Positions 13,781 through 16,261 of a stretch of 35,006 nucleotides of DNA are shown here, piece after piece (positions within the stretch are counted from its first letter, which is position 1; every line of letters begins with the position of its first letter). Under the pieces are notes generated by a model, which had not been told where the DNA came from, did no database searches, and worked only from the letters and a program-made list of their open reading frames with translations. The translations under genes were made by a program, and so were the position numbers. Location: contig JAKLKY010000006.1 in the NCBI GenBank assembly GCA_023150415.1, positions 1 through 35,006 on the forward strand, in the 5' to 3' direction. The DNA is from Alphaproteobacteria bacterium. Lineage in GTDB: Bacteria; Pseudomonadota; Alphaproteobacteria; Micavibrionales; Micavibrionaceae.

Positions 13781-13835
13781 AGACAAGAGTTATAGCGGGC
13801 CGAGGCCAGCGAGTAAATGTTTGCCTTGAAAGCCC

Positions 13836-16043
13836 TTAAAATTCGGGGGTCAGGCCAGAACCGCCACCCCCGTATTTGGGTTTTTGGCCTTTGTCGGGCA
13901 GGGATTCATAACGCGCCATAACCCAATTCCAGCGCACGGGATCGGCAGTGGTCACTGTTCCATTGCGCCAACGATCAATCATGTTTGCAGTCAACCCCTC
14001 CGGCACGTCTTTAGCCTGGAGCAGGGTTTTGCTCCCCACGCCTGTGCGGCGCACATGATCTTCCAGTTGTTTCCGCATTGCGGGTGTAATGGTGATGGTG
14101 GGCGTTTCATCCGGCAGGGATTCATAACGCGCCATAACCCAATTCCAGTGCACGGGATCGGCTGTGGTCACTGTTCCATTGCGCCAACTATAAATCATGT
14201 GTACAGTCAACCCCTTCGGCACGTCTGGGACCTTGACCAGGGCTGTGCTCCCCACGCCTGTGCGGCGCGCATGATCTTCGAGTTGTTTTCGCATTGTGGG
14301 TGTAATGGTGATGGTGGGCGTTTCATCCGGCAGGGATTCATAACGCGCCATAACCCAATTCCAGTGCACGGGATCGGCAGTGGTCGATGTTCCATTGCGC
14401 CAGCTATCAATCATGCCTGCAGTCAACCCCTCCGGCGCGTCTGGGACCTTGACCAGGGCTTTGCTCCCCACGCCTGTGCGGCGCATATGGTCTTCCAGCT
14501 GCTTGCGCATCTCGGACGTAATCTCAATCATATGATCCCGCCGCAGGCGCATGCGTTCGTTGAGCAATTCGCGGATTTGCGCAGGCTCGGTGATTTCCTC
14601 GACCTCCTGCCCGTCGATAACCGTCGTACCACCCTTGGGGCACGGCGGTTCCAGGGTGTCCGGATCATCCTCGTCCCTGTATCCTTTGGGTTTGCCTTTG
14701 AGGACATACACATCATCAATGATGTCGGCGGCCAGAACGGCGCGGCGGAGGGCTTCGGCGCGCAGGCGTTCATCTTCTTCCGGATCGTCCGAGCCGACAT
14801 AAACAATGGTGTCGATGAAGGTCAGGCCTTCCCAGCGCTGCTTGACCGGATTCCACCATTTGCGCGCGCCGCGGCCCATGATCTGCGCCTTGTCGGGCAG
14901 GGATCCGTGCGGGCAATCGACAATGGTTTTCATCGGCGGATGATCGAAACCTTCCTTGAACTTCTCATCCCCCACCACGGCCATATATTTCCCGGCCTTG
15001 TAATCATTCATCCGCTGCTTTTGTTCTTTGCGCGGCATGTTGGAATGGATGGAAACGGCCACACCCTTGCAGCCCCGCGCAGCAGCCTTATGAGCCAGCA
15101 TGGTGTTGGCATTTAATTTTTGTGCAAGATCATCCGCCTGCGTCGTATCAAAGGTAAAGAACCCGGCCTGATTGTCCGAGAGCGGATCGCCGGTGCGGCG
15201 GTCGGTTCCTTCAGCGAACAAGACAACGGCGCGCTTGTTCCACGCGGCTTTGCGTAAAGCGAATTTATTGACGTCGTTGTTATTAGCCGCATCGGCAAAT
15301 TCGCCTTTTTTCTTTTTGGGCGGCGTAACCCGAATGATGCGGAGTTGGATTTGAATATATTCCGCCGATTCATCACCGCGCACGGCGTCGGACAAGGATT
15401 TGTAATAGATTTGACGCTCATGCGTTTGATGGACGGATTTTTCTACATCGAAACGCGCGGTGGCCGTGAAGGCAAGGCGCGCGGCGCGGGCGCAATTAAA
15501 CTCCTCGAATAAATCAACGCGCACATCGGACGTGCCGCGGTGGGCCTCGTCCGAGATCAGAATATCGGTGTTATCGGCGCTGATGATGCCCTTCTCTGTC
15601 AGGTCCGCCCATGCGTCATAGGTCATGATGGTGATGGGCTTTTTCAGGTTCTTGTGCCCATCGCCATAATGGCCGATGTGACCCGCATAAGATTTGGCAA
15701 ATTCCTGAATGGCTTCATCGGTTTGCTGCATGAGATCAATCGTCGGAACGACGATTTTTGTACTGAGCTCTACACCTTCTTTTTTCGCAGCATCATGCGC
15801 ACCGGCAATGATCGCGACAAAGACGGCGGTTTTACCGACGCCGGTGGGGATTTCAAAAAATCCTTTAAGTTTTTCTGCATCTGTCAGATCGCTGCGCTTT
15901 AAATATTTTGCGTAGGCTTCAAGCGCCTCGCGCTGCGTCGGGCGGAATTCTTTGCCATTCTCAAAGTGGCCACGCGACAACAGCGCCGCAACCGACGCCT
16001 GCAAATAGCGTAGAATATCTTTGGAACCTGCCTTTTTGGCCAT
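13836..16043 (-). CDS. SF2 DEAD/DEAH-box helicase with three tandem C-terminal HTH-like units
   Basis: The product is 735 residues from the ATG at 16043; a GTG at 16067 would add eight. Using the longer numbering, the helicase core has IPTGVGKT (73-80), a TYDAW segment, DEAH (173-176), TAT (201-203), and a second RecA domain ending in QIMGRGARKWW (395-405). This resembles the helicase halves of restriction and defence enzymes, but I see no nuclease or methylase domain. After an acidic linker, residues 514-725 hold three copies of a 72-residue unit, each running MRKQLEDH, RRTGVGS, GLT, MI, WRNGT, TTADPV, WNWVMARYESLPD. Each unit looks like a four-helix Cro/CI-type HTH. The gene stands alone between glmU and an unrelated operon. 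Possible roles are DNA repair, defence or a site-guided helicase; none is shown. Confidence 0.85.
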   Translation of the reverse strand: MAKKAGSKDILRYLQASVAALLSRGHFENGKEFRPTQREALEAYAKYLKRSDLTDAEKLKGFFEIPTGVGKTAVFVAIIAGAHDAAKKEGVELSTKIVVPTIDLMQQTDEAIQEFAKSYAGHIGHYGDGHKNLKKPITIMTYDAWADLTEKGIISADNTDILISDEAHRGTSDVRVDLFEEFNCARAARLAFTATARFDVEKSVHQTHERQIYYKSLSDAVRGDESAEYIQIQLRIIRVTPPKKKKGEFADAANNNDVNKFALRKAAWNKRAVVLFAEGTDRRTGDPLSDNQAGFFTFDTTQADDLAQKLNANTMLAHKAAARGCKGVAVSIHSNMPRKEQKQRMNDYKAGKYMAVVGDEKFKEGFDHPPMKTIVDCPHGSLPDKAQIMGRGARKWWNPVKQRWEGLTFIDTIVYVGSDDPEEDERLRAEALRRAVLAADIIDDVYVLKGKPKGYRDEDDPDTLEPPCPKGGTTVIDGQEVEEITEPAQIRELLNERMRLRRDHMIEITSEMRKQLEDHMRRTGVGSKALVKVPDAPEGLTAGMIDSWRNGTSTTADPVHWNWVMARYESLPDETPTITITPTMRKQLEDHARRTGVGSTALVKVPDVPKGLTVHMIYSWRNGTVTTADPVHWNWVMARYESLPDETPTITITPAMRKQLEDHVRRTGVGSKTLLQAKDVPEGLTANMIDRWRNGTVTTADPVRWNWVMARYESLPDKGQKPKYGGGGSGLTPEF
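13893..14528 (-). repeat. Three tandem 216-bp units inside the helicase gene
   Basis: Units at 14528-14313, 14312-14097 and 14096-13893 (last one truncated by four codons) encode the HTH-like repeats. Phrases such as ATAACGCGCCATAACCCAAT recur exactly every 216 bases. A hand alignment of the second and third units gives about 19 differences in 216 bases. They lie in the coding frame and have no spacer, so they are an internal protein duplication, not a CRISPR. Confidence 0.92.
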
Positions 16044-16049
16044 GAGGAT

Positions 16050-16077
16050 TTTTAATATAAGTGGCACAAAATGTCAA
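16050..16077 (-). promoter_or_regulatory. Candidate promoter for the helicase gene, possibly leaderless
   Basis: On the minus strand a perfect TTGACA (16077-16072) is followed 16 bases later by TTAAAA (16055-16050). Transcription would then start at about the ATG at 16043, giving a leaderless message; this fits the lack of a ribosome-binding site before either start codon. The -10 is poor. Confidence 0.32.
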
Positions 16078-16261
16078 CAAATATGTCTATATTAGATGCA
16101 ATTTAAAGTTGCGCTCTGGGCGGGGAATGATTATGATTCTCCTGGAATTCAGGTCCTTACGTCTAAAATACCTTCAATATCCCTCTAATTTCAGCATTAT
16201 TTAACGTATTGTATATTATAGTGCTAAAGGGACTTTTTTATCTTCGTGGGTGAGGTTACGT

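Follow-up and report, generated by a model that had tools for sequence, protein, structure and literature searches.

Modular DNA readers are well known, the eukaryotic zinc fingers and the TAL effectors of Xanthomonas among them. The recognition helix of the lambda and 434 repressors reads bases with its first, second, and sixth residues, and a fold of the Cro type can also bind a protein, as in the SinR–SinI pair. In the zinc fingers of PRDM9, the DNA-contact residues (−1, 3, and 6) evolve fastest (PMC2779102). Helicases are also found working beside relaxases, and in ICEBs1 the relaxase is joined at the transfer origin by the PcrA helicase and HelP (PMC3542172). The gene described here was compared with these systems and with the XPB/RAD25-type and Type III restriction helicases.

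The gene lies in a 35,006-nt stretch of alphaproteobacterial DNA (hereafter, the window), where positions 13836-16043 form one open reading frame of 735 aa that encodes an SF2 helicase followed by three C-terminal HTH-like units. The ATG is at 16043 and the stop codon at 13838-13836, so the gene is on the minus strand, and its strand in the earlier observation was corrected. All features given below are on the minus strand. The helicase core covers aa ~1-445 (14709-16043), as determined using Pfam, phmmer, and an alignment with five homologues. Pfam ResIII (E 8e-22) and DEAD (E 3e-13) matched aa 32-199, while the Helicase_C match at aa 327-394 was below the Pfam cut-off. The key residues of the helicase motifs were invariant or nearly so across the five homologues: T67, G68, G70, K71, and T72 of motif I (Walker A, PTGVGKT, aa 66-72, 15828-15848), D165 and E166 of motif II (DEAH, aa 165-168, 15540-15551), and Q387, G390, R391, and R394 of motif VI (QIMGRGAR, aa 387-394, 14862-14885) were all invariant. 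The DEAH-type core named in the original prediction was confirmed by these Pfam matches and conserved motifs, and motifs I, II, and VI with two RecA-like domains place the protein, as judged from its sequence, among the SF2 helicases. An acidic linker, also predicted originally, joins the core to the repeats at aa ~446-503 (14535-14708).

The closest solved sequences to the core were XPB-II/RAD25-type enzymes (phmmer against the PDB, E 2e-9). Those chains are 440-472 aa long (one fragment is 237 aa) and align with the core only, so that no repeat array is covered. The protein shares the ResIII ATPase domain with the helicases of Type III restriction enzymes; unlike these, it has no C-terminal endonuclease domain and no Mod methylase partner according to Pfam, NCBIfam, and the neighbouring genes. 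The claim that nuclease and methylase parts are missing held for the protein, in which the Pfam and NCBIfam scans found neither domain, as well as for the genes next door, which are glmU and an unnamed gene without a Pfam match. With neither a nuclease nor a methylase, identification as a restriction enzyme was rejected.

The linker is followed by three repeats of 216 nt (72 aa) each, which are in register with an exact spacing of 216/216. At the DNA level, two copies showed 91% and 81% identity to the reference copy, and the proteins (about aa 504-719) were 75-85% identical. Since the spacing is exact and the DNA and protein identities are high, the three-copy repeat is far beyond chance, and the three tandem 72-residue copies claimed originally are real. 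Unit 1 (aa 504-575) is at 14319-14534, with its predicted helix-turn-helix part at 14394-14465; unit 2 (aa 576-647) is at 14103-14318, with this part at 14178-14249; and unit 3 (aa 648-719) is at 13887-14102, with this part at 13962-14033. Unit 2 was assigned from its AlphaFold model (pLDDT 93) and Foldseek, unit 1 from the repeat and by homology to the unit-2 model, and unit 3 from the 216-nt repeat. A repeat-assembly artefact was ruled out, as the repeats are in register and diverged and a like architecture occurs in independent genomes.

The fold of the unit was predicted using AlphaFold with ten units from the window and Cerasicoccus as input. The model (pLDDT 93, pTM 0.82) has four helices, at residues 9-22, 26-30, 41-49, and 57-69, in agreement with the small four-helix module expected for each unit. 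When the model was compared with the PDB using Foldseek, most of the top matches were Cro/CI HTHs with a TM of about 0.5-0.6, including SinR, ComR, Aca1, C-proteins (C.Csp231I), EspR, and Rgg, but no single match was significant (best E 1.8). The PDB sequence-profile search of the unit returned chance matches only, no curated Pfam HTH model matched the window units, and the unit was absent from all Pfam models; the array of one relative matched Pfam HTH_31/HTH_3 below the cut-off (E 1e-3). A like Foldseek search with a different repeat, from the helicase of G055, gave no HTH matches. Given the confident model, the Cro/CI-dominated list, the lack of such matches for the G055 repeat, and the sub-threshold HTH_31/HTH_3 match, the unit is likely to have a Cro/CI-type HTH fold, as the original prediction had supposed. 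The unit resembles the Cro/CI (XRE) proteins in predicted fold and helix order. In contrast with them, it has a long turn and a conserved P-x-GL before the recognition helix, scores below the Pfam thresholds, and occurs in tandem arrays of 1-11 units, not as dimers.

A single-protein search directly against genome contigs gave no match. The protein is not one of a kind, as it belongs to a rare helicase family with tails that appear exchangeable. Core homologues were found in 8 of 142 genomes of the Micavibrio order and in one of 338 genomes of the Verrucomicrobiota, that of Cerasicoccus frondis; among 349 genomes from the window's own phylum, the only core was that of the window. Core identity across the family was 32-55%. 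The window core was 54-55% identical to the Cerasicoccus core across phyla (54% where compared alongside G016), whereas the G016 core was only 32-33% identical to the Cerasicoccus core.

All homologues with sufficiently complete contigs carry repeats in a C-terminal tail, and the tails differ in copy number and type. Four units each are present in G016 and Cerasicoccus. In G008, about eleven tandem, longer relatives of the unit are encoded in a single 1426-codon open frame (L049:7182-11459). The tail of G011 apparently has five or more units and is split over two contig ends, with C14 stopping in ...PPKGMSKKR and C3 starting with KKRVKRIISG.... Five repeats of ~95 aa were found in G511 and six of ~91 aa in G055 (L066:3158-4795, also L045), while G001 has one unit, placed before the core. 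In profile comparisons, the G008 type was related both to the unit (95%, E 2e-8) and to the G511 type (92%, E 9e-7); as a control, column-shuffled profiles reached at most 4%. The G055 repeat was linked to no other repeat by this comparison, had no Pfam match, and gave a model (pLDDT 82) without a PDB fold match.

The Cerasicoccus and G055 cores are sisters with 53% identity, yet their tails are undetectably related. Moreover, the units of Cerasicoccus, G011, and G016 formed a clade (96/96) without the window units, in a unit tree of few columns, and the core tree was poorly resolved with two partial sequences included. As close cores carry different tails and the unit clade conflicts with the core identities, the sequences indicate that whole tails have been exchanged between helicases, and this conclusion is grounded mainly on the comparison of Cerasicoccus with G055. 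In the libraries and literature searched, a bacterial helicase with a predicted sequence-reading tail of tandem Cro-like HTHs, replaced between close relatives, is not described.

Related units also occur outside helicases. A search with a single unit, as proposed originally, returned stand-alone arrays and other helicase tails as relatives. By single-unit or unit-profile searches, stand-alone proteins of three units were found in G046 and G050, one to five units in G176, G215, G330, and G339, and four in G495. Several stand-alone arrays are near large serine recombinases, and the recombinases of L026, L028, and L029 end at a tRNA (tRNA-Thr, tRNA-Val, and tRNA-Ala, respectively). Stand-alone arrays were observed on mobile regions of Alphaproteobacteria and Cerasicoccus (L026, L027, L028, L029, L030, and L068:2529-3431), and the arrays of L027, L029, L030, L031, and L068 adjoin a gene for a long, charged, coiled-coil-like protein. 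Searches for the unit in plasmids and phages found none. Identification as a phage gene was rejected, since phage records gave only partial matches of 31% and viral contigs weak ones, and a plasmid gene was likewise rejected after plasmid comparison.

The genomic setting was clearest in Cerasicoccus, where NikA/MobC comes first, a MobA/VirD2-type relaxase follows, and the helicase begins ~40 nt beyond the relaxase. The region also contains a serine recombinase, a tyrosine integrase, and a stand-alone array of three units. The 18.5-kb segment is flanked by 95-bp direct repeats containing the end of a tRNA-Ser, and its G+C content is 46.6%, compared with 57.3% in the 2.7 kb beyond. As an integrase, att repeats, and a relaxase are present in cis, this segment is an integrative mobilizable element. 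It also encodes a second SF2 helicase of 1095 aa (L068:13927-17211, minus strand), whose C-terminus we take to resemble a restriction-endonuclease fold (D...E-x-CK pattern) and which is possibly defence cargo. The relaxase adjoins only this one member of the family; elsewhere, the G001 copy has a phage-type integrase and a tRNA-Val nearby, and the G511 contig encodes a DUF3363 protein, a domain known from relaxases. The likeness to ICEBs1, a helicase acting with a relaxase, is here drawn from gene position alone; unlike ICEBs1, which uses a host helicase and a processivity factor, the element encodes its own SF2 enzyme with a predicted DNA-binding tail.

In contrast, the integrase, att repeats, and relaxase that accompany the Cerasicoccus copy were not found with the window copy. 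No mobile genes are immediately beside it, no att-like repeats of the Cerasicoccus kind surround it, no tRNA is within the window, and a search of the 92.5%-complete genome for a MOB relaxase (PF03432) gave no match. The helicase sits in the 13786-16250 interval between glmU and the gene at 16250, in the place of genes found in relatives. Four of these (G006, G010, G032, and G036) have a DUF3108-like gene between glmU and the 16250 gene, and three of the four have an acyltransferase-like gene, names which we assumed from the sequences of these genes. Both are missing at the window site.

To see where the units differ, substitutions within the arrays were compared. Among the three copies in the window, an amino acid was changed at 12 of 24 codons in the HTH part, compared with 6 of 41 outside (Fisher p 0.0036), and codons with synonymous changes only numbered 0 and 8, respectively (p 0.0022). 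The pooled proportions were pN 0.173 and pS 0.083 inside the HTH part and pN 0.075 and pS 0.226 outside. The face of helix 3 that points outward (model residues 41, 42, 45, and 46), which was recognised after inspection of the data, differed in 0.88 of the unit pairs within 11 arrays, compared with 0.59 elsewhere (p 0.0007), and the excess remained without the window array (p 0.0018). Among all i, i+1, i+4, i+5 faces in the unit, this face was the most variable (0.88, the next being 0.78). A stricter set of positions taken from the 434 repressor (26, 41, 42, and 46, which adds the first residue of helix 2) reached only p 0.06, and the claim of diversification therefore depends on the helix-3 face. 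The pattern fits DNA reading by the units. It is like that of the PRDM9 and KRAB C2H2 arrays, in which tandem DNA-binding units duplicate and change fastest at DNA-contact residues (for PRDM9, PMC2779102); the units here differ in being Cro-like HTHs, bacterial, and fused to an SF2 motor, with DNA binding only predicted. The repeated or phased target suggested in the original prediction was not borne out, as no iteron-like DNA repeats were found near the genes, and iteron-type targets were rejected. Within an array, the residues presumed to read DNA vary from unit to unit, which suggests that its sub-sites are non-identical.

Relatives that keep the motor and change the tail, together with copies that differ most where such folds read DNA, indicate that the tail probably directs the motor to particular sequences. 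The explanation we favour, with about an even chance of being correct, is a helicase of mobile elements with an exchangeable HTH array that reads DNA and thereby fixes the loading point of the motor, in the original setting at the origin or transfer region of an element. We infer helicase activity and DNA binding, in which the Cro-like array at the C-terminus of a horizontally moving SF2 helicase would read double-stranded DNA a few bases per unit, so that the units of an array would read different short words of a composite site. Binding of the array would then decide where the motor loads. Arrays would lengthen by unit duplication, with later changes in the copies falling mostly where the recognition helix faces DNA, and whole tails would pass between helicases, related units occurring also as stand-alone arrays. 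In the original setting, the array would dock the helicase at the origin or transfer region of an integrative mobilizable element, and the docked helicase would serve the relaxase by unwinding DNA as the element replicates or is transferred. In the window, the copy would be an intact, solitary chromosomal descendant, which may have been retained for a different purpose, for example to exclude related DNA.

Other explanations were weighed against this one. If the units bind protein, or bind DNA nonspecifically, they could simply keep the helicase attached to a partner or to DNA in general, the variability being drift at exposed positions. Cro-type folds can indeed bind proteins, the non-recognition positions 52 and 65 are also highly variable, and the independent arrays are few. 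However, a single face of helix 3 stands out in variability over the other four-residue faces, and substitutions in the window cluster in the HTH part, where synonymous-only codons are lacking; such tethering was considered unlikely. The intact state of the gene bears on another alternative, namely that the gene is a relic of a mobile element, in decay and with no function today. The associated mobile genes are gone from the window and the site lacks two genes of the ancestral neighbourhood, but a 735-codon open frame, conserved key residues of the helicase motifs, three intact units, and recent amino-acid-changing divergence between the units make decay very improbable.

The same solitary, intact chromosomal gene without mobile genes beside it would also suit a host defence or exclusion protein, whose array recognises invading DNA of phages or related elements while the helicase strips or blocks it, with an arms race diversifying the recognition helix. 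The patchy distribution of the homologues at differing sites, the diversifying recognition face, and a weak score of the core against PADLOC PbeA are in line with this. On the other hand, neither the protein nor the adjoining genes contain a nuclease or effector, and where the neighbourhood is best preserved, it is that of a mobilization operon rather than a defence island. The PbeA matches are partial and limited to the helicase part, and no full-length match to a known anti-phage system and no system neighbours were found. A defence role appears rather improbable.

Returning to the mobile helicase with a swappable DNA-reading array, a broader proposal is put forward tentatively, as a possibility. 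Cro-type HTHs may form a bacterial, zinc-finger-like retargetable system in which tandem units, each reading a short word, are duplicated, diversified at the helix-3 contacts, and passed as cassettes from stand-alone arrays to an SF2 motor or back, re-aiming the motor at new DNA sites. The paired tails and motors of this family are a natural set for measuring directly what each unit adds to DNA recognition. If the reading is true, the family suggests a way for a mobile element to send its own motor to a particular site.
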